From a virus: 63,523 bases of DNA. Every line of letters starts with the position of its first letter. The first letter of the stretch is position 1. The DNA lies in the IMG/VR virus record IMGVR_UViG_3300044712_001865, positions 1 to 63,523 of that record. One strand, 5' to 3'. This document shows positions 2,582-54,086 of the stretch, piece by piece. The translations under genes and the position numbers were made by a program. The notes under the pieces were generated by a model that did not search any database, was not told the DNA's origin, and saw nothing but the letters and a program-made list of their open reading frames with translations.

Positions 2582-3073
2582 CTAAACTAACTTTTTCACA
2601 CTATCTAAATGTTCTTTAGACATAACAGTCCCGCTTTCATTGATAGTAATAAAAAATTCAATCATTTCTCTTTCTGTTTGTAACTTTGGGTCAATAACAG
2701 GTATAGTTTTCCATTTTATTGTTTTCATTAAATCAATATCTTTATTTGTTAAACCTAGTAATTCTTGTTTTACACCTACTAAAGAAAATTCATTATTAAC
2801 AAATCTTTTTATTGAAGTTAATCTTTGCAAACCGTCTATTAATACAAGATGATTATCTTTATTATTATAATCAAATATATAATTAATAACTAACGAACTT
2901 ACTGGTAAATTTAATAATATAGATTGAATTAATCTTGAAGCTTGCTCATCTGTCCAAACATAATTTCTTTGCCACTCAGGAATTTTCATATTATTAAATT
3001 TCTCCATTATATCTTCTATACAACAATTATAATTTTGATAATTTAATTGAAACTTTTTTAAATTTTCTAACAT
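2582..3073 (-). CDS. DUF262 (ParB/GmrS-like) domain protein
   Basis: A 163-residue protein if started at the ATG at 3073, which directly follows the conserved U-rich leader. An upstream in-frame ATG at 3109 would translate the leader itself and is rejected. It carries the DUF262 signature: IPEWQRNYVW, then IQSILLNLPVSSLVI, then LVLIDGLQRLTSI. DUF262 is the ParB-like nucleotide-hydrolysing domain of GmrSD restriction enzymes and relatives. Here it stands alone without a nuclease half, so a regulatory or counter-defence role is possible. It is the first gene of the leftward operon from module copy 2. Its first residues MLENLKKF match those of the gene at 5370-5759. Confidence 0.8.
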   Translation of the reverse strand: MLENLKKFQLNYQNYNCCIEDIMEKFNNMKIPEWQRNYVWTDEQASRLIQSILLNLPVSSLVINYIFDYNNKDNHLVLIDGLQRLTSIKRFVNNEFSLVGVKQELLGLTNKDIDLMKTIKWKTIPVIDPKLQTEREMIEFFITINESGTVMSKEHLDSVKKLV

Positions 3074-3095
3074 AAATAAAATAAATAAAACTAAT

Positions 3096-3233
3096 ATTAT
3101 AATAAACATTATTTTCTTATTGTCAAGAACTTTTTTTAATTATTTTTAAAATATTTTTTATTATTATAATAAACTCTAGATAAAATAAAGAGTTTAGACT
3201 ATAAAATATTTTAAATAAATATTTTACTTGACA
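3096..3233. promoter_or_regulatory. Bidirectional promoter module, copy 2
   Basis: The leftward promoter has -35 TTGACA at 3121-3126 and a perfect -10 TATAAT at 3096-3101, spacer 19, and feeds the DUF262 operon. The rightward TTGACA at 3228-3233 faces the gene at 3288, with TATTAT at spacer 17 as a possible -10. The interior is nearly identical to copy 1 and includes the core AGATAAAATAAAGA and the AAACTCT/AGAGTTT inverted repeat. Confidence 0.7.
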
Positions 3234-3287
3234 ATGAAAAATATTTATGTTATTATATTATAATTATTATTATTTTAAAGTTTATTT

Positions 3288-6167: not shown

Positions 6168-6812
6168 CTAAAAACTTAATAAAACTCTTAACTCCTCCCA
6201 TTTATTCTCTTCTTTACGAAGGAATTTAGAGTATTCTTGGAAGATATTGCAATATAATATTTCATAAAATATTAGATAAACCTCTGGATCTCTTATTTGA
6301 ATATTATCAATTATGTCTAACATACACATTGTATTAAAATTCATCTCATAGTCTTTTCGCTTTATAGCTAAATATTTCTTTAATTCGTCATCTTGAAAAA
6401 TATCACCACAGAAAACCGTAAAATCTTGACTTTCACATGCTATTTCAGTTTCTATCATAACTTCAGTGATAGCAGAGTCTAGAACAACATAATCCACATA
6501 CATCTTAGCTCCTGTTAGCTCGCAGAGTTTAGCTAGGATTGGGTCGGATGGTGTGGATTTTTCAATAAAATTTGTAAAATCTTTATTATCAATTATTCTG
6601 CTAATATTTCTTCTTGCGTCTCCGTAGCCACCATGCATAGAGGTGGAACTAAAATATATCTTTAATGAATCTTCATCTAAAGAGTTATGTATGAAATCTA
6701 ATACATTATCTTTTATATTGCATATATCATCTTTGAATATAACATAACTTTCATCCAAACTAATCATTACATTTTTTTCTTCCCAAGTTGGAAAATAAAA
6801 ACATTTTTTCAT
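6168..6812 (-). CDS. Hypothetical protein, inverted paralogue of the 58.2-kb gene
   Basis: A 214-residue protein starting MKKCFYFPTWEE. The N-terminus, a central block (STPSDPILAKLCELTGAKMY) and the C-terminus (YCNIFQEYSKFL, then WEELRVLLSF) nearly match the 246-residue protein at 58226-58966 on the other strand. The stretch between N-terminus and central block is unrelated in sequence and shorter. A 64-bp block is identical at DNA level (6497-6560 and 58574-58637), as are the first ~34 bp and the end of the gene through the stop. No function is recognised. It is the first gene after the left promoter of module copy 3. Confidence 0.65.
   Translation of the reverse strand: MKKCFYFPTWEEKNVMISLDESYVIFKDDICNIKDNVLDFIHNSLDEDSLKIYFSSTSMHGGYGDARRNISRIIDNKDFTNFIEKSTPSDPILAKLCELTGAKMYVDYVVLDSAITEVMIETEIACESQDFTVFCGDIFQDDELKKYLAIKRKDYEMNFNTMCMLDIIDNIQIRDPEVYLIFYEILYCNIFQEYSKFLRKEENKWEELRVLLSF
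6497..6560 (-). repeat. 64-bp inverted repeat, copy 1
   Basis: Identical in inverted orientation to 58574-58637. It is far richer in G and C than its surroundings and encodes the conserved centre of the two paralogous proteins. Such long exact inverted copies could support inversion of the ~11.3-kb arc running through the contig join. Confidence 0.8.
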
Positions 6813-6836
6813 AAAATAAATAAATAAAACTATATC

Positions 6837-7010
6837 AGTATGATAAATATAAAAAATTAATTGTCAAGTAAAATATTTATTTCTTTTTAAATAAAAAATA
6901 TTTATAGTTTAAACTCTAGATAAAATAAAGACCTTATTACAATAATAAAAAATATTTTAAAAATATTTAAAAAAAGTTCTTGACAATTAATTTTTTATAT
7001 TTATCATACT
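6837..7010. promoter_or_regulatory. Bidirectional promoter module, copy 3
   Basis: The leftward promoter has -35 at 6862-6867 and CATACT at 6837-6842; the rightward one has TTGACA at 6980-6985 and CATACT at 7005-7010. Both spacers are 19. The interior carries TATAGTTTAAACT followed by AGATAAAATAAAGA. The outer arms read ATTAATTTTTTATATTTATC on both sides, so this copy is symmetrical. It serves the 6812 operon leftward and the clamp-like gene rightward. Confidence 0.7.
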
Positions 7011-7027
7011 GATATAGTTTTATTTTT

Positions 7028-10549: not shown

Positions 10550-10855
10550 CTAAAATTGAATATAAGTATAACCACCTATTGTAAATTTTGATTTTACAAC
10601 ATAATTTTTATTATTTTCCCTTACTGATTTTAGAAAATATTTAGAATAATTGCGATCAATCATATATATATCTAAATTTGCATCATAAAGTGCATCAATA
10701 AAATCATAATTCCTTTTTCCAAAAATAATTTTAAAACAATTTTCTTTTCTTTGAAAATTATAATTACAACCTTCTAAATCATTTGCAATAAAAACACTTT
10801 CTTCTAAAAGATTAAAATCTTTATGTTTTTTTAAACTTTTTAACATTTCTTTCAT
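10550..10855 (-). CDS. Hypothetical protein
   Basis: A 101-residue protein, Lys/Asn/Tyr-rich, with no recognised motif. It is the first gene after the leftward promoter of module copy 4 and begins directly after the conserved leader, which supports expression. Confidence 0.55.
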   Translation of the reverse strand: MKEMLKSLKKHKDFNLLEESVFIANDLEGCNYNFQRKENCFKIIFGKRNYDFIDALYDANLDIYMIDRNYSKYFLKSVRENNKNYVVKSKFTIGGYTYIQF

Positions 10856-10884
10856 AAAATAAAATAATAATAAATAAAACTGAT

Positions 10885-11046
10885 ATTATAATAAATACTT
10901 TTTTCTTATTGTCAAGAATTATTTTAAATATTTTTAATTTATTTGATTAAACTCTTTATTTTATCTATAGTTTAAACTATAAATTATTTTTTATTTAAAA
11001 AGAAATAAATATTACTTGACAATTATTTTTTAATATATTATATATT
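10885..11046. promoter_or_regulatory. Bidirectional promoter module, copy 4
   Basis: The leftward promoter has -35 at 10910-10915 and a perfect TATAAT at 10885-10890 (spacer 19), serving the gene at 10855. The rightward TTGACA at 11016-11021 has TATATA at 11039-11044 (spacer 17) or TATATT at 11041-11046 (spacer 19). The latter places the transcription start at the first base of the structured RNA at 11051 or a base or two after it. The interior has CTTTATTTTATCT and the 16-bp palindrome TATAGTTTAAACTATA. Confidence 0.75.
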
Positions 11047-11050
11047 TATT

Positions 11051-11285
11051 GCTAGTAGCTTAAGAGCATGAGGAGTCCGTTAGCTTGAAAGGGTCTAATG
11101 GCTAGTGTTGCGTTATTAAGAAACTGTATGCACTTTCATATATAAAAGTCCTGATAAGATGAAAAAATATATGTCAATTGTATGTATATAAGCCTTAAGA
11201 TAGCCAAGCGAAAAACTAGACAACGAGGCGTCCATCATACGCCTACAGTCTTGACTCTATATATTAAAAATATATGGCTACTAGC
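11051..11285 (+). ncRNA. Structured noncoding RNA, ~235 nt, class not recognised
   Basis: The ends pair perfectly: GCTAGTAGC (11051-11059) with GCTACTAGC (11277-11285). Further helices seen by eye are AGGCGT/ACGCCT (11226-11231/11239-11244), CATATAT/ATATATG (11137-11143/11167-11173), ATATATT/AATATAT (11259-11265/11269-11275) and TTAAG/CTTAA (11060-11064/11194-11198). GGCTA at 11100 can pair with TAGCC at 11201, or CTAGT at 11102 with ACTAG at 11215, so alternative folds exist. G+C is about 36% by my count, well above the surroundings. There is no reading frame longer than ~15 codons. A promoter ends just upstream. I compared it by eye with RNase P, tmRNA, 6S, group I introns and hammerhead cores and found no convincing match. 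Confidence 0.75.
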
Positions 11286-11529
11286 AAAAAAAACTTGACT
11301 ATTATTTTAATGTAGTGATATTTATTTAAAGGTTAAAGTTATTCAAGTTCAAGATACTAAAAGAAATACCAATTACTGAAGATAAAGATAAAATGAAGTC
11401 TTTAGTAATGAAACAAAATATTTTTGACAAAGTCTTATTACGAGTGAGTAAGAAAAAAGTTGAAAATAAGAAAAAGACTACTTCCATAAATAGAAGTAGT
11501 ATTATAATAATGTTATTTACTTTGTTTAT
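11286..11529. other. Gene-poor stretch after the structured RNA
   Basis: It starts with A8 and a TTGACT box at about 11295 with no good -10. A reading frame with ATG at 11393 would give 46 Lys-rich residues (MKSLVMKQNIF and onward), ending inside the next gene region at about 11533. The frame is open upstream without an ATG, so it may be a small gene or a remnant. A hairpin at 11477-11500 interrupts it. I do not call a gene here. Confidence 0.4.
11477..11500 (-). terminator. Hairpin terminator, best on the minus strand
   Basis: ACTACTTC (11477-11484) pairs with GAAGTAGT (11493-11500) around an 8-nt loop. On the minus strand it is followed by CTTTTTCTTATTTT, a good U-tract. On the plus strand the downstream bases are only moderately T-rich, so it may also end the RNA or small-gene transcript weakly. 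Confidence 0.55.
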
Positions 11530-11691
11530 ATGATTAAAAGAATTAAAAATTTAATTAATGAAATATTGTTTGCACGAAAAAGATATACAATATTAGAAGT
11601 AAAGTATAATAATTTACAAAAAAGATATAATGAATTATGGAGTCAAAATATTAATGATTTTGCAACTTTTATGAATATCAATAATCATTGA
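11530..11691 (+). CDS. Small basic protein, 53 residues
   Basis: ATG at 11530 to TGA at 11691. The product starts MIKRIKNLINEILFARKRY and continues with an amphipathic helical stretch (LEVKYNNLQKRYNELW) that looks like a short coiled coil. It lies between the structured RNA and the GH19 endolysin gene. Only composition and position support it. Confidence 0.5.
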   Translation: MIKRIKNLINEILFARKRYTILEVKYNNLQKRYNELWSQNINDFATFMNINNH

Positions 11692-11881
11692 TTTTGTATA
11701 TATGTTTCATATACCTCAAATATTGTTAGATAATCTTCTCTTCTAAAGTTAATTTTTCTATCCGACAAATCTTTGCCATTTGTATTATCAATGATATAAT
11801 TTAATGATTTACAATATTCTTCTATTAATTTATTTTCAAGCTTTTTGTTGAATATTATTTCTTCACAAATAAAACATATAT

Positions 11882-12484
11882 ATGCTAATTCAATTAATAG
11901 ATTACACTAAAAACAAAGATATTATTGCAAATAAGGATAATATTATTGAAATATTAAATAAATATGAAATAAATACATATCTAAGACTAATACATTTTTT
12001 TAGTCAAGTGCACCATGAAACAAATGGTTTTACTAGGTTCTGTGAAAATTTAAATTACAGTGCAAAAAGATTAATGCAAGTGTGGAAGTCAAGATTTAAA
12101 ACAATAGAATTTGCAAAAGAATATGAATATCAACCTGAGAAGTTGAGTAATTATGTTTATGCAGGCTACCACGGCAGAGGATGGTTGCAAATATCTTTAA
12201 AAAGAAATTATGAATATTATTCTAAAATATTATTCAATAATATGCGGTTAGTCAACAACCCTGACTTATTACTTAATCATTTATATGGTTGTGAATGTAG
12301 TTGTATTTTTTGGAAAGAAAATAATATCAATAAATTTGCCGATGACAATGATTTATTTAATGTTTCAAGATTAATTAATAATCAATCTGCTAAGACTGCC
12401 GATAAAATAGTTGGCTACAATGCTAGAAAAATAATACTTGACAATTACAATAAACACTTTATAGAATTCGCTAATAACACCTAG
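11882..12484 (+). CDS. GH19 (chitinase-like) endolysin
   Basis: A 200-residue protein with the GH19 active-site block FFSQVHHETNGF (general acid Glu46), then ENLNYSAKRLMQVW, then GRGWLQISLKRNYEYY, then LVNNPDLL and a C-terminal SRLINN. Most phage GH19 enzymes carry a loop with N-G-D-E-x-S-G-D-G before G-R-G; here it is shortened to YVYAGYHGRG, so the second acidic residue is not visible. It degrades peptidoglycan. It leads a lysis cassette with the two spanins and two putative holins. No signal peptide is seen, so a holin is needed for export. Confidence 0.88.
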   Translation: MLIQLIDYTKNKDIIANKDNIIEILNKYEINTYLRLIHFFSQVHHETNGFTRFCENLNYSAKRLMQVWKSRFKTIEFAKEYEYQPEKLSNYVYAGYHGRGWLQISLKRNYEYYSKILFNNMRLVNNPDLLLNHLYGCECSCIFWKENNINKFADDNDLFNVSRLINNQSAKTADKIVGYNARKIILDNYNKHFIEFANNT

Positions 12485-12539
12485 AAAACATAAAATAAAA
12501 TAATAAATAAAACAATTAATTATTTGTATCTAGGTGTTA
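12475..12539. other. 10-bp inverted repeat around the GH19 stop codon
   Basis: TAACACCTAG (12475-12484) and CTAGGTGTTA (12530-12539) form a perfect stem that includes the GH19 stop codon; T-rich bases follow. The ~45-nt loop holds a minus-oriented copy of the shared leader (a CAT followed by AAAATAAAATAATAAATAAAAC). It may be a terminator-like hairpin limiting readthrough into the spanin genes. Confidence 0.5.
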
Positions 12540-12550
12540 GTTTTTGATTT

Positions 12551-12907
12551 ATGTTAGAAAAAATAATTACAATAATAATTTTAATTATAGCATTGATTCT
12601 AACAGGAGTTGCAATGAAGTTAGATATAGAATTAAAACAATGCAATAAACAATTTCAAGAATATAAAATGGCTAATTTACAAATTGCAAATGACAATCTT
12701 AACAAAGTTATTGATAAACAAGACAAAGCAATAAACAATCATGTTAATAGAGAGGCACTCAAAAATAAAATTAAAACTATTAAAGATAATAAGATTGATA
12801 TAAATAAATTGAATACTCAATTTAATTGTTTCAATAACAAAGCAAATGAAATGCAGGAGTTTTTAAAAGATAATAAAGAATTTGATATAGATTTATGTTT
12901 AAAATAG
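12551..12907 (+). CDS. i-spanin (Rz-like) inner-membrane lysis protein
   Basis: A 118-residue protein with an N-terminal membrane anchor (about residues 5-22) and a long Lys/Asn/Gln-rich helical periplasmic part. Its 3' end overlaps the start of a lipoprotein gene by 13 bp in another frame. An anchor plus coiled coil overlapping a lipoprotein, just after an endolysin gene, is the classic Rz/Rz1 arrangement, in which the pair bridges the envelope and disrupts the outer membrane. The family is identified by architecture and context, not sequence identity. Confidence 0.75.
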   Translation: MLEKIITIIILIIALILTGVAMKLDIELKQCNKQFQEYKMANLQIANDNLNKVIDKQDKAINNHVNREALKNKIKTIKDNKIDINKLNTQFNCFNNKANEMQEFLKDNKEFDIDLCLK

Positions 12908-13164
12908 TCATTGCATTATTAGTAATTGCTTCTTGTACTAAAACACAGAACATTGCAACTCCGATTAAAAATGTCAATTCAGTTCAAGCTAATGTTAGTG
13001 AAATACACTATTGTGATATTAAATTTGAGGCAGGTGTTAGTAATGTAAATCCAAATAAAGACGGAGCTTTTATTGATTTAGAAAATATCAATAAATTAAA
13101 ACAATGCTTACCAACGGAGTTCATTAATGAATTTTATTTGAAAAAAGAATTATTGAATAAATAA
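12895..13164 (+). CDS. o-spanin (Rz1-like) outer-membrane lipoprotein
   Basis: An 89-residue protein with a short signal peptide ending in the lipobox LLVIASC, giving a mature lipidated Cys at about residue 14. The rest is polar. It overlaps the i-spanin gene by 13 bp. Lipid-anchored o-spanins link to the i-spanin for the last step of lysis in Gram-negative hosts. At 89 residues it is longer than many Rz1 proteins. Context makes the assignment good. Confidence 0.75.
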   Translation: MFKIVIALLVIASCTKTQNIATPIKNVNSVQANVSEIHYCDIKFEAGVSNVNPNKDGAFIDLENINKLKQCLPTEFINEFYLKKELLNK

Positions 13165-13165
13165 G

Positions 13166-13558
13166 ATGACTGATGAAAATGATGTTGCATTGCAAGAATT
13201 AAAATTAGAAGAGAAATCTATAGAACATTCAAATCAATTTGCAAACGATTTATTAAAAGAATTAAGCCCAAAATTTAAATTTATAATTATTTACTTAGAA
13301 AAATTATTATTTGTTTTAATATGCTTTTTAATTGTTTTTGCATTAGTTAAATATCAAAATAAGATTAATACTATAGATAATCATTATACTGGCTTGATTG
13401 TATTATTATTATTATTACCTATATTAACATTTGCAACATTTATACCTGAGAGGTATTTATTGCATAAAGTATTCAATGCATTGATTGAGTTAGTAATATC
13501 TTTAATCAAACTTCCAATGAATATTTCACAAAAGATTTATGATAAAATTATTAAATAA
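13166..13558 (+). CDS. Membrane protein, candidate holin
   Basis: A 130-residue protein with two strong hydrophobic segments (about residues 48-65 and 78-95) and a possible third near residue 110. The N-terminus is charged and a basic tail follows. It starts 2 bp after the o-spanin gene and overlaps the next gene by 20 bp. Position in the lysis cassette and topology suggest a holin or holin partner; no family signature is visible. Confidence 0.55.
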   Translation: MTDENDVALQELKLEEKSIEHSNQFANDLLKELSPKFKFIIIYLEKLLFVLICFLIVFALVKYQNKINTIDNHYTGLIVLLLLLPILTFATFIPERYLLHKVFNALIELVISLIKLPMNISQKIYDKIIK

Positions 13559-13856
13559 ATATAAAGATTTAATTATCAAAGTTATTGCAGGTGCCGTGTT
13601 TGCAATTGTTAGTTATCTTTATAATAGTTTGAGTAATTATTTTAATAATCATTTCAACAATATTGAAAATCGTTTTAGGAGTATTGAAAATCAATTAAAA
13701 GAAATTCCCGAAATAAATATTAAAGTTGAAGAACTTGAAAAAAAATACAACATTAAATCAAAAAGAAATAATGATAAATTTGACGAATTGAATAAAGAAA
13801 TTAAAGAATTGTATTACAAAGTAGGTAAAACTGAAGGGAGAGTATTTAAAAGATAA
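13539..13856 (+). CDS. Single-pass membrane coiled-coil protein, candidate holin or antiholin
   Basis: A 105-residue protein with one hydrophobic segment (about residues 10-28) and a long charged coiled coil (about 38-95). It overlaps the previous gene by 20 bp, which suggests coupled translation. The layout resembles some class III holins and phage membrane proteins near lysis genes. It is the last gene of the lysis cassette before the terminase. Confidence 0.5.
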   Translation: MIKLLNKYKDLIIKVIAGAVFAIVSYLYNSLSNYFNNHFNNIENRFRSIENQLKEIPEINIKVEELEKKYNIKSKRNNDKFDELNKEIKELYYKVGKTEGRVFKR

Positions 13857-13967
13857 AATAAATAAAATAATATCATTATTATAATTACAAAAAATCAATT
13901 GTTAATAGTTTGACAATTAAAAAATAATAAATAATCATATAAATAAGATTGTTGCAAAAATAGATCA

Positions 13968-15440
13968 ATGAATAAAGCATTAATAGTAAATAAATTGATT
14001 AATGATAAGATTATAGAAAAAGCAAGAACAGATTTTAAATTTTTTTGTAAAATAATAGGAAATGCAATAGATCCAAATCATATTTTTAATGATAAATATC
14101 AAAAAATATTAATTGATAATACACAATATTTTTTAAATAATAAAGATTTATTTACATATTTTATTGAGGCTCCTATAAGGTCAGGTAAAACAGAAATTAT
14201 AACAACTTATAATATTGCAAGATTACTTACAATACATAAAGATAAAAAGTTTTTAGTTGCAACTGGTTCAAAGAAATTGAAAACTAAAATTATAAGAGAT
14301 TTATTAAGATTATTAAATTCTTCAATATATAAAAAATTATTTAATTTAGAAATAGAAATATCAAATCAAGAGCAGATGACTTTTAATAATGGATGTAAGA
14401 TTGATTTTATAACAGCAGGTTCAGCAATCCCAACTGGCGAAGGTTATCATTTTATATTCTTAGAAGATTTTTTAACAAGAACGACTTATTATAGTCTTGC
14501 AAAACGAGAAAATGCTTTTGAACAATTACACGGTGTACTTGGTAGAAAACAACATGACCCAGCTACTAAAATTATTGTTTGCAATCAAAGATTTGGTGAA
14601 GGAGATTTAAGTGAATATCTTGCAAATTTATATAAAGAATTTAATGTGAATGTTTTAAAAATAACAATTCCGTATATTTTTAGAATTGACACAGAGTATA
14701 TATTACCAACAACAAATGAAATTATACAATTTAAAGAAAATGAATTTTTAGTGCCTTGGTTTAATCAAAAAGAAATGCAACGAACTATCGCAGAGCTTGG
14801 AGGAATGTATGCCTTTGAAGCAGAATGTCAGCAAAATCCACAAGTAAAACAAGGTCAGTTCTTTAAAAGAGAACTTATTGAATCGGTGCAAGTTCCTATA
14901 TCTTTAATTAATGAAAAGAAAGGTTATTATGTTATTTCAGTAGACACGGCAAGTGGATTGGATGAATCTAACGATTTTACAGCAATTACAATATTAAAAT
15001 GTATTCAAGAATATCATGGTTATGATATATATGTAAATAATATTATAAGATGTAAATTAACAGGTTATGATTTATGTCAAAAAATTAAAATATTGTCTTT
15101 AGAAACTTATAAGAATAATAATATGATTTTAATAGAAGAAAATCATATTGGAAGTACTTTAATAAACTTTTTAAAGAATGATTTTAATATTGATGCAAAA
15201 GGAATTAAAAGAACTGGTGGAATGAAAACAAATAATAATGAAACTTTAAAAGAAGATATGGCAATGAGTATTAATCTTAAAATGCATGAAAGAAGATTAT
15301 TTTTTCCGCTTGATAATGAAGTTAATTTTATGTATGATTTAAAAAATGAAATGTTTAGTTTTCCATATGGAAAACATGATGACCAAATAGACAGTATTGC
15401 TAATGCAATTTATTATTTAAGAAAAATTAATGTTTATTAA
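13968..15440 (+). CDS. terL: Terminase large subunit
   Basis: A 490-residue protein. The ATPase half has the Walker A-like APIRSGKT (residues 68-75) and a Walker B-type FIFLED near residue 166, followed by a possible coupling motif. The nuclease half has VISVDTASGLDESNDFTA near residue 323, ILIEENHIGSTL and a final HDDQIDSIANAIYYL, giving the acidic metal-binding set of the RNase H fold. It translocates and cuts DNA during head filling at the portal. No small subunit is recognised next to it. A weak TTGACA at about 13912 lies in the 111-bp gap upstream. Confidence 0.95.
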   Translation: MNKALIVNKLINDKIIEKARTDFKFFCKIIGNAIDPNHIFNDKYQKILIDNTQYFLNNKDLFTYFIEAPIRSGKTEIITTYNIARLLTIHKDKKFLVATGSKKLKTKIIRDLLRLLNSSIYKKLFNLEIEISNQEQMTFNNGCKIDFITAGSAIPTGEGYHFIFLEDFLTRTTYYSLAKRENAFEQLHGVLGRKQHDPATKIIVCNQRFGEGDLSEYLANLYKEFNVNVLKITIPYIFRIDTEYILPTTNEIIQFKENEFLVPWFNQKEMQRTIAELGGMYAFEAECQQNPQVKQGQFFKRELIESVQVPISLINEKKGYYVISVDTASGLDESNDFTAITILKCIQEYHGYDIYVNNIIRCKLTGYDLCQKIKILSLETYKNNNMILIEENHIGSTLINFLKNDFNIDAKGIKRTGGMKTNNNETLKEDMAMSINLKMHERRLFFPLDNEVNFMYDLKNEMFSFPYGKHDDQIDSIANAIYYLRKINVY

Positions 15441-15454
15441 GTTTTTAACAATAT

Positions 15455-15482
15455 TTCCGCAACTTATTTCTAAATTGCGGAA
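15455..15482. terminator. Bidirectional hairpin terminator after terL
   Basis: TTCCGCAA (15455-15462) and TTGCGGAA (15475-15482) form an 8-bp G/C-containing stem with a 12-nt loop. On the plus strand TTTCTAAAG follows; on the minus strand ATATTGTTAAAA follows. It would end terL transcription and also the leftward transcript that starts near 15575. Confidence 0.6.
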
Positions 15483-15575
15483 TTTCTAAAGACTATCAAG
15501 TGACACTGACTAGCAGGAGAACACAATAATCTTTTACTTATCAAGTAACTAGTATTTTTTGTATTGATAAGGCAC
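15455..15575 (-). ncRNA. Candidate small RNA, antisense side of the terL-baseplate gap
   Basis: A minus-strand promoter (TTGACA 15604-15609, TATAAT 15579-15584, spacer 19) points leftward into a gap with no gene. The ~120-nt transcript would contain CTTATCAA/TTGATAAG (15564-15571 with 15537-15544) and end in the terminator hairpin at 15455-15482. No start codon with a useful frame was seen. The structure is clear on paper; transcription is inferred. Confidence 0.5.
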
Positions 15576-15578
15576 ATT

Positions 15579-15609
15579 ATTATAATAATCATAAAAAATT
15601 CATTGTCAA
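15579..15609 (-). promoter_or_regulatory. Leftward promoter with 19-bp spacer
   Basis: TTGACA and a perfect TATAAT on the minus strand, 19 bp apart. It faces away from the baseplate gene at 15691-16302 and towards the candidate small RNA. The rest of the 15441-15690 gap contains imperfect repeats of TATCAAGTxAC...ACTAG. Confidence 0.6.
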
Positions 15610-15690
15610 GAATTATTTTACTTTTTAAAGAAAATTAGTAATTTGAGTTGATAATTAAAATTCTATTTATTGAAATAGATAAAATACAAA

Positions 15691-16302
15691 TCAAAAATAT
15701 TTAACATAAACAGTTTTTGTAAAAGGAACTAAATATTCTGCAACTTTTTTTATTTTTTCACCGATATTTTCTGCAAGAATAAAAGGTAAAGTATATGGTA
15801 AAACATCGGCATTTATTGAATTTGGAACATTAATATAAAATTTATTTGCTTGATGAGATTTATTACTACATAAAACAAATGGTAATGTATAAGGCAATGT
15901 TATATTATCCAACCCAGTCTGTATATACCATCCACTTCCAATTAACATAGGAAATAATTTTTCTAATAAATTAATAAAATCAGTTTTCTTAACAATTTTA
16001 AATCCAAATAATTTTAATACAACTAAATTAATTCTATCTTGTAAATTAGTAGGTATAAATGTAAATATTGAATCAGGAAGTCCGACCAATTTTTCCCAAT
16101 AAGATATTGTTTCTTCTGTTGCACTCCATATATCAAGTTGTTTTGATAATGAATCAACTCTATTTATTGTTTCTAAGTTTGCTAATGCAAAAACTCTAAG
16201 AAATTTTCGTAGTTCTGTGTTTTCAATATTTTTTGCTTCCCAGAATTTACCATTTGGAACGGATGATATTAAGATTGCTAATTCTTTGTCTATATTTGTC
16301 AT
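15691..16302 (-). CDS. Baseplate protein, Mu gp48/YmfQ-like (DUF2313)
   Basis: A 203-residue protein. The N-terminal half has the family pattern: an S-x-x-P-x-G-K-x-W segment, LRKFLRVFALANLETINRVDSL, then an acidic/aromatic W-E-K-L-V-G-L-P (YWEKLVGLPD). Mu gp48-like proteins sit at the baseplate periphery and precede the fibre genes in Mu-type phages. It is the last of a run of baseplate genes on the minus strand and begins 1 bp after the gp47-like gene ends. Confidence 0.8.
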   Translation of the reverse strand: MTNIDKELAILISSVPNGKFWEAKNIENTELRKFLRVFALANLETINRVDSLSKQLDIWSATEETISYWEKLVGLPDSIFTFIPTNLQDRINLVVLKLFGFKIVKKTDFINLLEKLFPMLIGSGWYIQTGLDNITLPYTLPFVLCSNKSHQANKFYINVPNSINADVLPYTLPFILAENIGEKIKKVAEYLVPFTKTVYVKYF

Positions 16303-16303
16303 A

Positions 16304-17890
16304 CTAATTTGTTATTACTGAAATTAAATCAGGATATTCGTATATTTGTGTATTTATATTATTTGTTATAATTCCATTAACTCTACAAACAATACTATAA
16401 TCAATGATTTTTTGATTATTATAACTACTTTTTGAGACTATATTGTAATATGTTAGTTCTGAGATATACTGACCACCTTTTACATAATTAGTAAAATAAT
16501 CTATTAAATTATTTCTTATTGATTGTTTCATCCCTTCGTTATTTGGCACAATATCATTAACTTCAAAACTAACTTCTAATTTTTCAAAAGAATTAATATG
16601 ATAATAATTAGAATCTGTAAATGGTAATGTATTTTCATTTATATAATCTTTATATGTTATTAACTCTGTTGGAGACGGATATTTATCAGTTGTATTTTTT
16701 AAAATAAACAATGAATTATAATCTGAGTTTGGAATCATTATAACATTTGTACTGCAAGTTAAGTCTTCCAATGTATTATTTCCAACATATAGAATAATTT
16801 TATTAATATCTAAAATATAATATACTTTAGCATAAGGTTCAAGTCCTGTTGGAATATTTAAAACAGATTCTATTGAATTAAGAATTTTAACATCTTCTCT
16901 TATAGAATTAATATTGTGTGGAATTGAAGTCTCATAAACTCTATATAAATCATTATTATACTGTGGTAACATATTTTTTTCAAATGTTGTTAATTTTCTA
17001 ATTGATGACACAGGAACTCTATAAGAATAATTTTTTACTAATTTTACTTGTTTAATATCGTTAAATTTATCTTTTAATGTATTTTCTATTAAAGATGCAG
17101 AATAATCATTAGTATTGTTAGCAAATTTATTCATTACTCTGTTTGCATAATTTGTTAATGTTTCCTCGTCAGAACCACCAGTAATATCAACAACTAAACA
17201 ATAATCATTAATATTTGTTAATGTTGTAGTAATTTGTAAAGAAATACCATTATTTAAATTAGTAACTGAACCAGATTCATTGCAAATAAGATTTAACAAT
17301 GCAAAATTACTACTATATTGAATTACACCAGTTGCAGTAACAGAACCGCTGTCTTCTACGATGTAGGTAAATTCATCATTATCTATTACAACAATTGATA
17401 TATCGTTACGATTAAAATTATTTTCATTTGCTCCGCTAATTGTTAAAATCGTTCCAGTTGCTAGGTTATGGCTAGAAGATGTTTTCACTGTTGCTATTGT
17501 ACCATTTCTTGTTATTGAAAATATATTTTGCTGATTTAAAGTAATTGTTGCGTCGGAGATAACTCTATATGTATTGACACCATTAGTAAATTGAATTCCA
17601 TTTGTTATTATTGCTCCAATATTTCCTTGAATTAATGCATAACCTATTGCACTTGTTGCTTCGTTTTGAGCGATTCCTATTACATTGCCAGTTAATCTTA
17701 ATTCTTCTATTGTTTGCCTTTCAATAAGTATTTCTTTTAAATATTGTTCTTCTATGTAATTTCTTTGCAAGAATAATGCCTTTGCATATGCATTTAATAA
17801 CCCATAAAATCCACTTCGTTTGTTAATATTTCTACCAGTAATTGATATATAATTAGCTATTAAATTATTTAATATTGTGTCAAATGTCAT
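16304..17890 (-). CDS. Baseplate J/gp47-like protein with inserted domain
   Basis: A 528-residue protein of the Mu gp47 / P2 gpJ family, seen in LIANYISITGRNINKRSG near the N-terminus and DITGGSDEETLTNYANRVMNKF in the middle, then a beta-rich C-terminus. About residues 120-195 insert a compact repeat-like domain (SITRNGTIATVKTSSSHNLA, then FTYIVEDSGSVTATG) that is found in many phage tail proteins. Gp47 forms wedge arms that connect the baseplate to the tail hub. It overlaps the gp46-like gene by 4 bp. Confidence 0.88.
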   Translation of the reverse strand: MTFDTILNNLIANYISITGRNINKRSGFYGLLNAYAKALFLQRNYIEEQYLKEILIERQTIEELRLTGNVIGIAQNEATSAIGYALIQGNIGAIITNGIQFTNGVNTYRVISDATITLNQQNIFSITRNGTIATVKTSSSHNLATGTILTISGANENNFNRNDISIVVIDNDEFTYIVEDSGSVTATGVIQYSSNFALLNLICNESGSVTNLNNGISLQITTTLTNINDYCLVVDITGGSDEETLTNYANRVMNKFANNTNDYSASLIENTLKDKFNDIKQVKLVKNYSYRVPVSSIRKLTTFEKNMLPQYNNDLYRVYETSIPHNINSIREDVKILNSIESVLNIPTGLEPYAKVYYILDINKIILYVGNNTLEDLTCSTNVIMIPNSDYNSLFILKNTTDKYPSPTELITYKDYINENTLPFTDSNYYHINSFEKLEVSFEVNDIVPNNEGMKQSIRNNLIDYFTNYVKGGQYISELTYYNIVSKSSYNNQKIIDYSIVCRVNGIITNNINTQIYEYPDLISVITN

Positions 17891-18306
17891 ACAACTATAA
17901 CTTCTAAAGTATTTTTTGTATTATTTATAAATAATGTAATCAATAAAGTCAATGTTTTTTGTATTAATTTATGTTCAATTTCAATGTTTTCAACATAATT
18001 TTCATTGATTAACCATTTTAAAGAATTTAGTGTAAATGATTTAATAAGTTGTATATCATTTGTTGTTGCCTTGTCTTTTATCCAAATCAGCGAACCTCTT
18101 GAAATATCTAAAAAATAACTTCCACCTCTTTTTATAATTGGAAAACTATTTTCTAATCCAATTCTTTGAGTTTCTAGCAACGATATTAAAATAGGAGTTT
18201 CACCAGTTTCCTCTTCTATATATGTATTTGTTATATTGTCAATTGCAAAATCATATATACCGTTGTTTCTTTCTATCTTAAAATCGTGTATAGGTTTTTT
18301 TAACAT
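17887..18306 (-). CDS. Baseplate protein, Mu gp46-like (gpW/gp25 role)
   Basis: A 139-residue protein with the gp46 layout: IYDFAIDN near the start, ETPILISLLETQRIG, then IIKRGGSYFLDISRGSLIWI. These proteins nucleate sheath assembly on the baseplate. Gene order with gp47-like and gp48-like downstream agrees. It overlaps gp47-like by 4 bp (ATGA type), suggesting coupled translation. Confidence 0.78.
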   Translation of the reverse strand: MLKKPIHDFKIERNNGIYDFAIDNITNTYIEEETGETPILISLLETQRIGLENSFPIIKRGGSYFLDISRGSLIWIKDKATTNDIQLIKSFTLNSLKWLINENYVENIEIEHKLIQKTLTLLITLFINNTKNTLEVIVV

Positions 18307-18344
18307 ATTTGATATTTAATTTATTTTTATTATTTGCAATAATT

Positions 18345-19577
18345 TTATTGTAATATAAATGAAGGACAAATAAATATAGACTGAATGTAACCTTGTTGTT
18401 TATTAAAATTAAATGTAATACCACTAATAATAAATGTATTTAAATTATTTCTTTTATTATCTATAAGTTTTGAGGCAAATAAAATGTCTGTTATATTAAT
18501 ATAAGCACCTATTAAATATTTAATATTTTTTCTATCTTTATCAATAAAATTGTTATTACTGTTTAGTTCGCATATTATAGACAATCCTTGTGAAATATTG
18601 GTCTCACAAATATATCTTCCAATTTCTTTTAATGTTTCATGCTGAACTATGCTTTCTTTTTTTTGAAAGTTTTTATATTCAACATTTAAAGCATTTTTTA
18701 AACTATTAGTTATTTTTTGAATTGAATCATTGTCATTTTTATACCATAATTTATTAACATCAATTTTATGTGTTGCAAATGAACTACTTGATTCACTATC
18801 ATCTAAAGATGAATTTGAATATAAAGAAATTTCATCATACATTTTACTATAATCGCATTCATAATTAAAATCTATTGTATCTTCTTGATTAATACTAGGA
18901 ATTTGATTTGCTAAAAATACATTATTAACATAATATCCAGTATCAAGAAAATATAAATAAGTTATGCCATTGAATGTTAATGTTGTAATGTGAACTGAAT
19001 TTTGATTTGCTAATTTTTCAATATAATCATAAACATACATAGATATTTTAGGTTTTCTTTCCGAACTATCGTCGTCTTCGTTTTGCATTTTAATATTTTT
19101 TCTACTTGGTAATAATATTGCAAATTTTAATTTTCCTATTTGTATTCCATCATATAAACCTATTTTAATTAATGAACCTATATTATCTTTTAAAACATTT
19201 AAAATATGTAAATTAAAACTATTATAAGTATAGGATTCTTTAATTTCCATTTGTTGAATTGTTAAAAAATGTGTTACATCAACAAAACTAATAGTAATTG
19301 TTTTATCTTTAAGTGGATTTAATTTAAATGATAATACATAACCATTCATTTTTACATCATTATCATTAAAATTAATACTTCCATCTTGATTTAATTCGGT
19401 ATAATATATTTTTACTGGCTCAAATTTACCTAATAATAAACCAGTATAATTAAAAGTTATATCAATCTGTCCGTTTGTTTCAAAAATATTATTTCTGCCA
19501 CTAACAGTTTCAATATACATTCCATAATCTCTTAGTGTTTTATTGCTATTTAATAACAAAACTTCAAATATTTTCAT
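18345..19577 (-). CDS. Baseplate hub protein, Mu gp44/gpD-like
   Basis: A 410-residue protein from the ATG at 19577, two bases after the preceding gene's stop; an upstream start at 19640 would overlap that gene by 61 bp. Beta-rich, with N-terminal TLRDYGMYIETVSGRN and VYDYIEKLANQN in the middle. Position between gp43-like and gp46-like genes and the size fit the Mu gp44 hub (T4 gp27-like). Direct motif evidence is modest; gene order carries the call. Confidence 0.7.
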   Translation of the reverse strand: MKIFEVLLLNSNKTLRDYGMYIETVSGRNNIFETNGQIDITFNYTGLLLGKFEPVKIYYTELNQDGSINFNDNDVKMNGYVLSFKLNPLKDKTITISFVDVTHFLTIQQMEIKESYTYNSFNLHILNVLKDNIGSLIKIGLYDGIQIGKLKFAILLPSRKNIKMQNEDDDSSERKPKISMYVYDYIEKLANQNSVHITTLTFNGITYLYFLDTGYYVNNVFLANQIPSINQEDTIDFNYECDYSKMYDEISLYSNSSLDDSESSSSFATHKIDVNKLWYKNDNDSIQKITNSLKNALNVEYKNFQKKESIVQHETLKEIGRYICETNISQGLSIICELNSNNNFIDKDRKNIKYLIGAYINITDILFASKLIDNKRNNLNTFIISGITFNFNKQQGYIQSIFICPSFILQ

Positions 19578-19579
19578 AA

Positions 19580-20788
19580 TTATATTATAACTCTTACATT
19601 TCCATTTAATATTCTTAAATCTGTTTGCTCTGGATTCCATTTATATATCATATCTAAATTATCAATATTATTATAAATTTGATAACAAAATTCAATTGGT
19701 GTAATATTGTATAAATTAAAATTAACAAATGGTCGCAATGTTTCTTTTTTATTTATTAATATTATATTTGTATAATTTATAGTTTGTTGTAAAAGTGTCG
19801 TTAAATCTATATTATCAATAAAAATCATTTTATTATATAAATTGTTAATATCTATAATTCTATTCTCTATTTCTTCTATTGAATTGAAATCTGTAATACC
19901 ACAATTTATGCAAGTATCTATAAATATAATTGATAACATATATTCATTGATTGGATAAGTTGCAAAATAGTTTTCATTTGATAAATCACTTTTATCTTTA
20001 CTAAAATTATCAATTTCAAATTGAGTTATTAGTTTAAATAATAAATTAAATTGCTCTTTTGTATCTTGAGTTAAATTATTAAAATTATCTATAATAATAT
20101 CAAATTGAATTGTTAATTCATTTGGTAAATTGATTAAATTATTTAAATTATTTAAATTAGTTTGTAAAGTATTTTGTAATTCTGTAACTGCACTTAGTGT
20201 ATTATTTACTGTTCTAGTTATTGCTATCATCGTTTCAGATATTTTAGAAATTTTAGATTTTACTGTATCAATTGTATCTATTACTGTATAATATTTATTT
20301 AAAAAATTTTCTAAAATATCTGATTTAATTATTTCTTTTAAACTGTATAAATCATTAACTGTTATTATATTTGATTGTAAAGTATTTGTAGCAATAACAG
20401 ATTCTTCTAATGTTAATATATATTTTGTATATCCAATTGACTGAATATTAAAATATCCCTCTACTTTTTTTTCTGTTAATATTAACGGTTTATTAATAAT
20501 TGCAATATTGTTTGAAACAGTTGGAAAGGTACAGTATAAGTAATCAGATTGACATATATCGTTAAATTTTTCACAATCATTATATGCAACTAATATATTA
20601 ACTATATATATTGATTCTTTCCGTCCAGTCTTTACTATATTTCGTCCAAATCCAGGTATATCAAATTTTGCATAAGTATTATAATTTCCGTCATCATTAA
20701 TACTCTCAATTAATATATTGACTTTATTATTTATTGTTTCTTTATTATTAATACTCGCAGGTATTAATTTATTAATATCGTATGCCAT
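19580..20788 (-). CDS. Tail/DNA-circularisation protein, Mu gp43-like
   Basis: A 402-residue protein. It has a beta-rich N-terminal ~120 residues (FDIPGFGRNIVKTGRKESIY), a helical Asn/Thr-rich middle (about 150-250), and a C-terminal YNNIDNLDMIYKWNPEQTDL with an N-x-V-R-V-I-I end that recalls LysM-like tail hub ends. Mu gp43 (gpN) sits between tape measure and hub in gene order, as here. The assignment rests on order, size and layout. Confidence 0.65.
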   Translation of the reverse strand: MAYDINKLIPASINNKETINNKVNILIESINDDGNYNTYAKFDIPGFGRNIVKTGRKESIYIVNILVAYNDCEKFNDICQSDYLYCTFPTVSNNIAIINKPLILTEKKVEGYFNIQSIGYTKYILTLEESVIATNTLQSNIITVNDLYSLKEIIKSDILENFLNKYYTVIDTIDTVKSKISKISETMIAITRTVNNTLSAVTELQNTLQTNLNNLNNLINLPNELTIQFDIIIDNFNNLTQDTKEQFNLLFKLITQFEIDNFSKDKSDLSNENYFATYPINEYMLSIIFIDTCINCGITDFNSIEEIENRIIDINNLYNKMIFIDNIDLTTLLQQTINYTNIILINKKETLRPFVNFNLYNITPIEFCYQIYNNIDNLDMIYKWNPEQTDLRILNGNVRVII

Positions 20789-20821
20789 AAATTATATATT
20801 TTATTTTAATTTTAATTTTCA

Positions 20822-21358
20822 ATGAATATTATTCAAGCTAAAATAATAAAAATTCAAATTAATCCAAAAGCTAAAAAAGAAAGTGAAAAAAGATGGTTTG
20901 TAAATTGCAATGCTTATCAGAATGGAGACAATGTTATACAATATAACAATATTTTATTAATTCACAATAATCAATTGCCAAAAATTGGAGATGTTGTATT
21001 ATTATTTAGTAGTATATATGAAAAACAATCATTTTGCTTTCCAATCTTAGATTTAAAAAATTTAATACAATCAGGTGATAGTTTTCTCGGAGATTTAAAA
21101 AATAATAATAAATTATTAATTAGAGATGGTAAGATAGAATTAAAAATGAATAATGTTAATATTCAAGATAATATAAGTAAAGAGAGAGAAGAGGATATTA
21201 AAAGACAAAATGCACTAAAAACAGTATTAACAGCATTAATGAGTATTCCTGAACTTGCAAGCATAAATGCAATTATTACAACAGCTATTGAAACAATTAA
21301 TGAATCTATCGCAAATTCAACTACTTTAAAAACTAATTTTGATAAAACTTATTTTTAA
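20822..21358 (+). CDS. Baseplate assembly/spike protein, gp45/gpV-like, on the opposite strand
   Basis: A 178-residue protein whose N-terminal half (IHNNQLPKIGDVVLLFSSI) has the P-x-x-G-D-x-V-x-V-x-F OB-fold look of gpV/gp45 proteins, followed by a helical C-terminus. It fills the gp45 slot of the Mu-like baseplate set but is transcribed against the flanking gp43-like and tape-measure genes and overlaps the tape-measure stop by 4 bp. Inference is from motif and neighbourhood. Confidence 0.55.
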   Translation: MNIIQAKIIKIQINPKAKKESEKRWFVNCNAYQNGDNVIQYNNILLIHNNQLPKIGDVVLLFSSIYEKQSFCFPILDLKNLIQSGDSFLGDLKNNNKLLIRDGKIELKMNNVNIQDNISKEREEDIKRQNALKTVLTALMSIPELASINAIITTAIETINESIANSTTLKTNFDKTYF

Positions 21359-22902
21359 CCATTATTAATATCTCTTTTTTTAATATTGATATTTTTAACA
21401 TCATTTCCTTTGACTTTAATATCTTGTGCTGTTGCTTTAATATTTTTATCTTTTGTATCTATTTCTAATTTTACCGATATTTCATTTTGATTTTTATTGG
21501 TTGTTATTAATTTATTATTTTGAAATGTTTCTAAGATATTATTTTGTTTGATTGGAATAAATGATTGCATTGGATTTTGTGTAATAGGTTTCTTTACTAA
21601 GTTTTCTTTTTGCAATTTTTCTTTTTGTAAAAATTTGTTTTTATTTTCTTCATATTCTATATTTCTTTTTTCTACTTCTTTTTGCCAATCAGCAAATCCT
21701 TCTTTAGTAAATATTTTCGTCCATTTTAAGGACATAATTGACTTTGCTATTTCCCATATTGCAGTTAATGTATTAAGAATCGTAGCCAATGGTTTATCCC
21801 ACATAACAAAAGCTTCTCCTGTTGACATAATAGAATTTTTTAATCGTTCCCATGCTCCGTATGTAGACTGTAAAACTATTGCATTACCTCGTTCTGCAAA
21901 TCTTACTTTATCATGTGCATTTTTATATTCATTCATTTTATCAATTAAAGATGTTAATAAAATTAATGTACTACCAGATTGTGTTGAAAATATTGATTGT
22001 ATTTTTCTATCTTTTTGTGTTTGTGTCATTTTATCTGTTTTATTTTTTATAGCTTCTAAAACATTTATAAATCCTTTAGATTTTATATCTAAGTCTTTAA
22101 AATCTAAACCTAGTGTTTTAGATAATTTTTTTCTTTTATCAACATTACTAAATTCTAATAACATTGCATTAAGTCGCGAACCAGCTATATTTCCTCCATA
22201 ACCAGCCTCTAATAAATTTGCATATATAGAAGAAGCATCTTTTAATGAAATGTTATTTTGTTTTATTGATGCAACTGAATTTTGTATAAAAAATAAATAA
22301 TCAGTTAAATTACCTTTTGTTTTATCAAAAGAATATGCAACCTCGTCAGCTATATCTTGTAATGTAGTATTTCCACTTTTTATACTAGTTGAAAATGCAT
22401 TATATACATCGCCATAAGTTTGAGCCGCTTCAGTAAATCCTTGTTTTGTTGAGCCAGCAATATTTTTAACATGTTCAATAGAATCTGAAACAAGATTAAC
22501 ATTTCTTAATCTTCTTGAAAGTTCAAATGTTCCATGATACATTTCAGACATTGAAACAACACTTCTTTTAGAAACTTCTGACATTTTAGTACCCAATGCT
22601 TCCATTTCTCCGCTTGTTGCATGTAATATATTTTGCATTGAAACTAAATATTTACTTCTTTCTATAAGATAATTAAATGTTGATTTAATGCCAACATAAG
22701 CCAATGCTAATGTACCTAATCTTAAAATTCCATTTTTTGCCCAATTAAACATTCCGTTACCAGATTGCTTTAGTTCGTTATTTGCATCAGCTAATTTTCT
22801 TTCTTTCTTACTCAAACTGTCTGTTGCATTACTAATTTTATTAAGATTTTCACTTGCTTTATCTTGAATTTCTATTATTTGTGTTGCAACTAAACTAGTC
22901 AT
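21355..22902 (-). CDS. Tail tape measure protein
   Basis: A 515-residue protein with a coiled-coil N-terminus (about 10-45), a hydrophobic stretch (MFNWAKNGILRLGTLALAYV) and a TP901-type core: EVSKRSVVSMSEMYHGTFEL, AAQTYGDVYNAFS, ISLKDASSIYANLLEAGYGG and SGSTLILLTSLIDKM. It sets tail length and is ejected with the DNA. At roughly 0.15 nm per residue it implies a tail of about 75 nm (family rule, not measured). It follows the tail chaperone genes in the usual order. Confidence 0.9.
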   Translation of the reverse strand: MTSLVATQIIEIQDKASENLNKISNATDSLSKKERKLADANNELKQSGNGMFNWAKNGILRLGTLALAYVGIKSTFNYLIERSKYLVSMQNILHATSGEMEALGTKMSEVSKRSVVSMSEMYHGTFELSRRLRNVNLVSDSIEHVKNIAGSTKQGFTEAAQTYGDVYNAFSTSIKSGNTTLQDIADEVAYSFDKTKGNLTDYLFFIQNSVASIKQNNISLKDASSIYANLLEAGYGGNIAGSRLNAMLLEFSNVDKRKKLSKTLGLDFKDLDIKSKGFINVLEAIKNKTDKMTQTQKDRKIQSIFSTQSGSTLILLTSLIDKMNEYKNAHDKVRFAERGNAIVLQSTYGAWERLKNSIMSTGEAFVMWDKPLATILNTLTAIWEIAKSIMSLKWTKIFTKEGFADWQKEVEKRNIEYEENKNKFLQKEKLQKENLVKKPITQNPMQSFIPIKQNNILETFQNNKLITTNKNQNEISVKLEIDTKDKNIKATAQDIKVKGNDVKNINIKKRDINNG

Positions 22903-23213
22903 TGTTTATTATTTTTAATATCTTCTTCTATTACTTTTATTAAAGAGTTTTTAATATCAAGAAATTTCATAAAATCCATTAACATATAATCATCCCAATT
23001 GTATCCGTGCAATTCTCGTTGTAATCTTATTATATCGTTTTTTAATCTATCAATATCAAATTTATAACAATATTTAGCAATATTATATATATCCAATCTT
23101 TTAATTCTATTTGCTAATGATTTTGTAAATAGATAAAAATATATTATTTTGAACTGATTATAAAATCTTTTATTGAATTTACAACACTTTGAGTCAATAA
23201 AGTATATGGTTGG
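22899..23213 (-). CDS. Tail assembly chaperone, frameshift extension (GT-like)
   Basis: This is the -1 frame downstream of the T11 run in the gene at 23144-23722. Read alone, the 65-residue frame begins only at a TTG (23096). In the -1 frame it is open without stops from about 23279 to 22899, so a -1 slip at T11 gives a 274-residue fusion. It ends KVIEEDIKNNKQ, overlapping the tape-measure start by 4 bp. A short G protein plus a -1 frameshifted GT upstream of the tape measure is the conserved layout of many long-tailed phages. Confidence 0.7.
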   Translation of the reverse strand, partial: PTIYFIDSKCCKFNKRFYNQFKIIYFYLFTKSLANRIKRLDIYNIAKYCYKFDIDRLKNDIIRLQRELHGYNWDDYMLMDFMKFLDIKNSLIKVIEEDIKNNKQ

Positions 23214-23722
23214 AAAAAAAAAAAGTTTGTTATTAATTCCATAATTGCCATATAGTCTATATTTGAAATAGGCATATTTTCAGTATTAAATATATTTGCA
23301 TTTAAAATATAGCCTTTTTCTGTTGTTAATAAACCCTCTTCTAATATCATCAAATAAACTTCATTTTCTAATTCTGCTTTTATACTATTTTCACTAATTG
23401 CTTTTGATAACATTTCAAGCATTTCTATTTTAATTTTTTCATCAAGTGGTGTATTTGTGTTAATTTGTTTTATTATATTTTTAGAATTTATCAACATTAC
23501 TTTTTCTTCTATTGCAGACATAAAACTAAAAGATTTTCCAGCACTGTTTAATTTAGGTTGTAAATGCCTTCCAACTGGCGGATTGATAATAATTTTATTA
23601 ATTATTTCATCTATTTGTAAATTATCATCGTTAATTATTAATCTAACTGGATTTAATAATGTGTATTCAATAGACTTTGTATATTTATCAAAAATATCTT
23701 TATTTAATCCAAATTTTAACAT
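23144..23722 (-). CDS. Tail assembly chaperone (G-like)
   Basis: A 192-residue protein directly upstream of the tape-measure gene, which is the usual place of the tail chaperone. It is mainly helical in its second half (IEMLEMLSKAISEN, MAIMELITNFFFF). The T11 run (A11 on the plus strand at 23214-23224) codes for FFFF near residue 169. No membrane segment is expected despite that hydrophobic patch. Identity is from position and the frameshift layout rather than from sequence motifs. Confidence 0.65.
   Translation of the reverse strand: MLKFGLNKDIFDKYTKSIEYTLLNPVRLIINDDNLQIDEIINKIIINPPVGRHLQPKLNSAGKSFSFMSAIEEKVMLINSKNIIKQINTNTPLDEKIKIEMLEMLSKAISENSIKAELENEVYLMILEEGLLTTEKGYILNANIFNTENMPISNIDYMAIMELITNFFFFQPYTLLTQSVVNSIKDFIISSK
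23214..23224 (-). promoter_or_regulatory. T11 slippery site (-1 frameshift or transcriptional slippage)
   Basis: Eleven consecutive T on the coding strand (CTTTTTTTTTTTCC). A -1 move here joins the chaperone gene to the following frame without meeting a stop. Ribosomal slippage, polymerase slippage and a miscounted homopolymer would look the same in this sequence. Confidence 0.65.
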
Positions 23723-23780
23723 AAATTATATATTGATTTTAATTTTCATATATTAATATTTAATTATCAAGTTAAAATTT

Positions 23781-23978
23781 ATGTTAAATAAATTAAAATA
23801 TTTATTAATTGCATTATATCCAATTATCATTATAATAGATATATTATTTGCTATTTACTTACTAATAATTTTATTTATAAATGAAATAAAATATTCAAAA
23901 AAATTTACTTTTAAAAATGTTAAAGATATTTGGAAGTATTATAAATTTATAATTAATGTTCAAGATGAAAGAAAATAA
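23781..23978 (+). CDS. Small membrane protein
   Basis: A 65-residue protein that is largely hydrophobic in its first half (about residues 7-35), followed by a basic tail. It overlaps the portal gene start by 14-23 bp. Function is unknown; it opens the rightward structural operon, where a membrane protein is unexpected. Confidence 0.5.
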   Translation: MLNKLKYLLIALYPIIIIIDILFAIYLLIILFINEIKYSKKFTFKNVKDIWKYYKFIINVQDERK

Positions 23979-37096: not shown

Positions 37097-37100
37097 TAAT

Positions 37101-37253
37101 ATGTTTAGAAGTTTGATAAAAAATTATTTTCAAAATTTAATTAAAAATATTGTTAATATAGAAATTAGTAATTTATTACCATCTGGTAAATATGTTACCT
37201 ATAATGGTAAATATGTTACCTATAATGGTAAATATATTGTAAAAAATTTATAA
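37101..37253 (+). CDS. Small protein with GKYVTYN repeats, 50 residues
   Basis: ATG at 37101 to TAA at 37253. The C-terminus repeats G-K-Y-V-T-Y-N three times (last copy degenerate), encoded by a near-perfect 21-bp tandem (GGTAAATATGTTACCTATAA). It sits 7 bp before the large fibre gene. Function is unknown. Confidence 0.5.
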   Translation: MFRSLIKNYFQNLIKNIVNIEISNLLPSGKYVTYNGKYVTYNGKYIVKNL

Positions 37254-37260
37254 TTTATTT

Positions 37261-54060: not shown

Positions 54061-54086
54061 AAATAAATAATAAATAAAACTATATC

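Follow-up and report, generated by a model that had tools for sequence, protein, structure and literature searches.

A candidate structured RNA gene of about 0.45 kb ahead of the lysis genes of an AT-rich tailed phage

Lambda 6S RNA is the lambdoid late leader from pR', just upstream of the lysis genes, and phi29 pRNA is a phage RNA with pairing 5' and 3' ends, found in phages that have a different packaging ATPase. The large structured RNAs known from phages are few, and their functions, those of GOLLD and ROOL included, are open. GOLLD and ROOL are covariation-supported, occur in many phages and often lie by tRNA islands; GOLLD is often longer than 800 nt and its levels rise during lysis (PMC12286853). 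In AT-rich genomes, GC islands are an established pointer to non-coding RNA genes, exploited in the GC-IGR method (PMC6429828).

Here we analyse a 63,523-base IMG/VR virus record (the window) with an overall GC content of 22.9%, in which a first-pass annotation had proposed an unassigned structured RNA of 235 nt at positions 11051-11285. We favour, at a probability of about 45%, a dedicated phage non-coding RNA gene of approximately 0.45 kb (about 11051-11503) rather than 0.24 kb, the product of which would act as a structured RNA.

This candidate is like GOLLD and ROOL in being non-coding, of phage origin, elaborate in predicted structure and open in function (PMC12286853), but it is only about 450 nt long, comes from a single genome that has no tRNA genes and does not match the Rfam models of either. 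Like phi29 pRNA, it has ends that pair and shares a genome segment with terL; in contrast to phages of that type, the phage here has a conventional TerL (phrog_38), and pRNA gives no Rfam match. Lambda 6S RNA and the put RNA of HK022 (PMC9378689) are likewise short structured RNAs located at a promoter that precedes phage genes. Relative to these, the element lacks a 3' terminator and no Q-like or put-like sequence has been shown. The whole RNA is also several times longer than put, and a scan of 10800-24000 detected no plus-strand intrinsic terminator that a put-like or lambda-6S-like leader could pass.

The view of the first-pass annotation that the element belongs to no known class is borne out by the covariance-model search that it had suggested as a check. 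No match reached the gathering score anywhere in the window (Rfam 15, 4227 models), and a relaxed search at E<=10 returned only chance-level matches, all below that score. Bacterial 6S RNA, RNase P RNA and tmRNA resemble the element in size range and paired termini, but none of them matched at the gathering score or at E<=10, and ARAGORN detected neither a tmRNA nor a tRNA gene in the window. RNase P, 6S, tmRNA, group I and hammerhead RNAs were therefore rejected for want of an Rfam match. Retron msr-msd RNAs share terminal inverted repeats and a multi-hairpin interior with the element; this identity was rejected on finding no reverse transcriptase (RVT) match in Pfam scans of 40 proteins, a set that leaves out some small ORFs, and no reverse transcriptase was found in the flanking ORFs at 10121, 10550, 11530 and 11882 with the libraries scanned. 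An abortive-infection RNA partner was likewise rejected, there being no PADLOC match in the ORFs at 10121, 10550, 11530 and 9054.

The 235-nt element lies within a 674-nt intergenic region (10856-11529). The island described by the first-pass annotation is confirmed: the element has 36% GC against 22.9% for the window and 15.9% for intergenic DNA, and only a fraction of 0.0008 of the 235-nt stretches in the window are equally or more GC-rich. Those listed first among the other equally GC-rich stretches begin at 6401, within an ORF, and 11051-11285 is the strongest GC island in the non-coding DNA of the window. The absence of a useful reading frame was also reproduced, with codon-usage z-scores of -0.1 to -0.8 in the three plus-strand frames of 11051-11285, compared with +2.4 to +4.9 for seven small ORFs used as controls. 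The frames tested across the whole intergenic region showed no coding-like codon usage.

The 9-nt ends that had been reported as paired, GCTAGTAGC (11051-11059) and GCTACTAGC (11277-11285), do pair without a mismatch; with one further G-U pair they are predicted to form a 10-bp closing helix, P1 (11051-11060/11276-11285), with a mean pair probability of 0.96. A 9-mer inverted repeat that contains five or more G/C and has arms separated by 60-400 nt occurs at just one further locus of the window. Shuffling the 235 nt produced repeats of this type in 14 of 5000 sequences (0.3%), and shuffling the 674-nt intergenic region did so in 4 of 2000. It is thus improbable that P1 is due to chance.

Inside P1 the predicted structure is uneven. 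The fold of the entire 235 nt has a z-score of -1.57, equalled in 12 of 200 shuffles, and the interior without the closing helix scores -0.47. At least four internal helices had been claimed at the outset. Two of these are firm, at 11226-11244 and 11259-11275, whereas the hairpin at 11077-11101 has a pair probability of 0.63 and the others, at about 0.6, are ambiguous. The two firm helices fall in the 3' part of the domain (11211-11275), as hairpins 11226-11231/11239-11244 (probability 0.97) and 11259-11265/11269-11275 (0.86), and the local fold of 11211-11258 has a z-score of -3.1. The hairpin at 11077-11101, formed by CCGUUAGCUU and GGGUCUAAUGG (0.63 being its mean pair probability), is flanked in the minimum-free-energy fold by an alternative long-range helix (11072-11077/11253-11258), and the local fold of 11072-11105 scores -2.1. 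The middle of the element (11106-11210) folds no better than chance. Within the 235-nt piece, then, only the closing helix and the 3' hairpins are predicted firmly. The motifs proposed to compete for pairing are all where they had been placed, with GCTAGT at 11051 and 11101, ACTAGC at 11280 and ACTAG at 11215; the competing pairings are real as sequence, and their role is putative.

The element is preceded by one of about seven dispersed bidirectional modules with divergent TTGACAAT boxes. This copy, the fourth (10856-11050), is delimited by repeat families D4/D5/D7, inverted repeats I8/I17 and the promoter list. Its left arm has a -35 box at 10915 (minus) and drives 10550-10855, and its right arm has a perfect -35 box, TTGACAAT at 11016 (plus), that points into the RNA. 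The resulting candidate sigma70-type promoter (11016-11046, plus) combines TTGACA at 11016-11021 with a poor -10, which is either TATATA at 11039-11044 (spacing 17, 4/6 match) or TATATT at 11041-11046 (spacing 19, 5/6). The earlier claim that this arm starts transcription at, or no more than a couple of bases from, the beginning of the closing helix holds in part: the -35 is perfect and, given the 17-nt spacing, transcription would be expected to begin at about 11051, but the -10 is weak and the promoter is absent from the list of a generic promoter scan.

The distance from the start of the -35 hexamer to an ATG is 36-62 nt in 13 other module-type arms, whereas the first same-strand ORF of at least 50 aa after the right arm of module 4 is 514 nt away, at 11530. 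Some right arms look defunct, for example those at 353 and 51173, both directed towards the 3' ends of convergent genes, and so the presence of an arm alone is no proof of activity. Two of the other bidirectional modules, at 6813-7027 and 54061-54289, are long palindromes with fold z-scores of -9.7 to -14 on both strands.

The first-pass annotation had remarked on a missing U-tract terminator, and indeed A8 and no U-tract follows position 11285. It had also missed a hairpin array that continues on the plus strand beyond this point. The sequence 11290-11503 has a fold z-score of -3.83 on the plus strand (0/500 shuffles) against -1.04 on the minus strand, and 11355-11503 scores -6.0 against -1.9, with the limits of this 3' domain having been picked after inspecting the fold. 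Four plus-strand hairpins are predicted: H1 (11292-11349; 7 bp, an internal loop and 8 bp; probability 0.90-0.94), H2 (11372-11409; 12 bp; 0.97), H3 (11419-11468; 10 bp plus 7 bp; 0.96-0.98) and H4 (11477-11500; 8 bp; 0.98). H4 has a poor U-tract on the plus strand; read on the minus strand, it ends in a T-rich tail and is picked up by the scan as a terminator. On the plus strand it is likely to mark the 3' boundary of the predicted RNA. The strand asymmetry of the array arises from G-U pairs, which break on the other strand, and as a feature of the predicted fold it is as expected for a plus-strand RNA, unlike a DNA palindrome. By these predictions, 11290-11503 is more convincingly structured than the 235-nt element itself.

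Fold z-scores were compared with those of intergenic regions and 24 coding stretches. The lowest value in the coding controls (n=48) was -2.3. The plain intergenic remainder, 11286-11529, scores -2.95 on the plus strand and -1.1 on the minus strand; taken alone the former value is suggestive, since other intergenic regions come close (3110-3287 and 37097-37260, both on the minus strand, reach about -2.9) and the palindromic modules score far lower. The whole 455 nt has a z-score of -3.21 (0/100 shuffles), and the fold of the 5' domain is unchanged in that context. Coding remnants were rejected as an account of the 3' half on codon usage, with z-scores of -0.3 for the open plus-strand frame from the ATG at 11393 and 0.7 for a 53-aa ORF on the minus strand (11326-11487).

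These results bear on whether there is a functional RNA here at all. The locus could instead be a GC-rich captured fragment or gene relic accompanied by chance hairpins in AT-rich intergenic DNA, in keeping with a 5' domain energy close to that of shuffled sequences and with open frames that, by eye, have no proper start nearby and suggest decayed genes. We regard this as quite improbable given the strand-specific stability of 11290-11503, the improbable closing helix, the placement at a promoter arm and the position of the element as the strongest GC island in non-coding DNA.

Because four hairpins continue on the same strand to 11500, the 3' boundary of the 235-nt element is likely wrong, and a clean 235-nt RNA with ends of its own is less likely than either a long leader or an RNA of about 450 nt. 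The most economical interpretation of the predicted folds is likely to be a single RNA of about 450 nt spanning approximately 11051-11503. The same hairpins could alternatively belong to two RNAs, one a processed 235-nt element and the other running from a TTGACT site at 11295 to H4. P1 closes the first domain exactly, the A8 linker comes next, and a promoter-like site (TTGACT, spacing 16, GATATT) is present at 11295-11322. Nevertheless, that site is only a 9/12 match, of a kind found 15 times in the region against 16.7 expected from shuffles, it lies inside the confident hairpin H1, and there is neither a terminator nor a known processing signal at 11285. Two separate RNAs are accordingly an improbable arrangement.

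The genes that follow on the same strand are a 53-aa ORF (11530), a GH19 endolysin (11882), the ORFs at 12551 and 12895, genes for two small TM proteins, and terL (13968). In its codon usage the 53-aa ORF resembles a coding gene (z 2.5). Beside the endolysin, a gene for a TM/coiled-coil protein (12551-12907) overlaps one for a small lipoprotein with the lipobox IASC (12895-13164), and from their sequences the two are likely to be an i-spanin/o-spanin pair. A further small-RNA candidate (15440-15574, minus) is convergent with terL; it has a promoter TTGACA-16-TATTAT at 15609 (minus) and three hairpins, of which the last is terminator-like. Its fold z-score of -3.7 falls to an ordinary -0.8 without the terminator hairpin.

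As there is no clean plus-strand terminator, the transcript may run into the 53-aa ORF and the lysis genes. It could then be a cis-acting leader of a lysis/packaging operon, with a promoter at 11016 and a leader of about 480 nt through which elongation or timing would be controlled, much as with lambdoid late leaders or put RNA. The strand is the same, the lysis genes lie directly downstream, no strong plus-strand terminator occurs in 11285-15440, and the 53-aa ORF, although coding-like, has no good promoter of its own. We nevertheless consider a leader role unlikely, although it is the main alternative: leaders are short in the other module arms examined (-35 to ATG, 36-62 nt), a candidate promoter of the extended -10 type (11773-11800, 11/12 match) separately serves the endolysin, and neither a terminator pair nor an attenuator was seen.

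We prefer the free-standing RNA gene because its 5' half is a GC island in an intergenic region (10856-11529) with no coding-like frame where tested; because P1 would rarely arise by chance and its first base coincides with the expected transcription start of the module arm; because the stability of the 3' half is confined to the plus strand (z -3.8 to -6.0, with -1.0 to -1.9 on the minus strand) and the 455-nt whole reaches -3.2, a value not attained in 100 shuffles; and because arms that drive proteins have an ATG within 36-62 nt, whereas 514 nt separate the right arm of module 4 from the first ORF of at least 50 aa. Points against it are the z-score of -1.57 for the 5' domain alone, the weak -10, the post hoc choice of 3' limits and the lack of a homologue.

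For such a gene, the right arm of module 4 would direct host-type RNA polymerase to begin with the first base of the closing helix. The 10-bp P1 would tie the 5' end of the transcript into a closed 5' domain, and four independent hairpins would follow, the last marking the 3' end. The RNA would most likely act in trans, its stable structure serving as a scaffold or protein decoy whose unpaired linkers are A/purine-rich; the decoy, packaging or catalytic roles suggested by the first-pass annotation are likewise conjectural. Action by coding or self-cleavage seems less favoured than such a structured-RNA role. If the proposal is true, an RNA just before the lysis genes and terL, under a repeated promoter module, would offer a handle on the roles of large structured phage RNAs, and the boundaries given here make the candidate directly testable.

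No homologue of the RNA was found in IMG/VR, INPHARED, PLSDB or GTDB contigs. A search with a 19-base motif of the RNA gave no match, and the five matches to a 16-base motif were dismissed as chance, all being in DNA of 58-66% GC without further similarity. With blastn, the 5' half matched phages and plasmids only through the AT-rich promoter, and the 3' half gave only short matches in phages (E 0.07-0.8). The candidate RNA rests on a single sequence without covariation support. On predicted structure, it is credible as a new family, outside Rfam but within the known kind of phage structured non-coding RNA. More tentatively, it may be a large structured phage RNA of a new class, about 450 nt long, with a closed GC-rich 5' domain, a four-hairpin array and its own module promoter, in a lineage absent from the collections searched.

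The window encodes a portal, prohead protease, baseplate J, a tail tape-measure-like protein, TerL, a helicase and RtcB. The top matches of TerL among annotated phages are only about 24-26% identical, and a TerL search of viral and genome contigs returned nothing usable as a source of homologues. Searches with the MCP and the sheath-like protein gave no usable relative, the promoter-module pattern recovered no related phage, and RtcB led to none among the matches listed. From its genes the phage seems to be an AT-rich tailed orphan, its lineage absent from the public collections searched.

The RtcB RNA ligase is encoded at 56319-57401 (Pfam E 4.6e-83) in a phage without a tRNA gene. It matched at least 80 loci, with no more than 51% identity among the matches listed, where the nearest phage RtcBs are about 50% identical; at the RtcB loci among these matches neither synteny nor the RNA was present. 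The RNA could be circular or end-repaired and kept by this ligase, for which the phage offers no tRNA of its own as a substrate, and P1 would bring the RNA ends together. There is, however, no ribozyme or cleavage signature that would give RtcB-compatible ends, the rtcB gene is 45 kb away, and blastn detected no similar RNA within 10 kb on either side of 82 other RtcB-bearing phage loci. We hold a ligase-maintained RNA to be very improbable indeed.

Several other features of the genome emerged from the analysis. A DUF4116 protein (62364-63523 plus 1-191, minus) has at least 14 tandem 72-nt (24-aa) repeats; its ORF runs off the end of the window and seemingly resumes at the start, where an ATG near 191 follows a module promoter. 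As this protein appears to span the window ends, a circular or circularly permuted genome is probable. A paralogous pair of proteins of unknown identity (6168-6812, minus, and 58226-58966, plus) share 62% identity and each has a promoter module before it; no relative of the pair was found in IMG/VR, and their alignment yielded no usable relative. A GIY-YIG-like T5orf172/MUG113 domain is fused to an HTH_17 domain in the product of 47085-47822 (minus). Finally, a short protein encoded at 2582-3109 (minus) has only the N-terminal domain of GmrSD/DUF262 and also matches anti-phage defence models, and is possibly an anti-restriction or exclusion factor.
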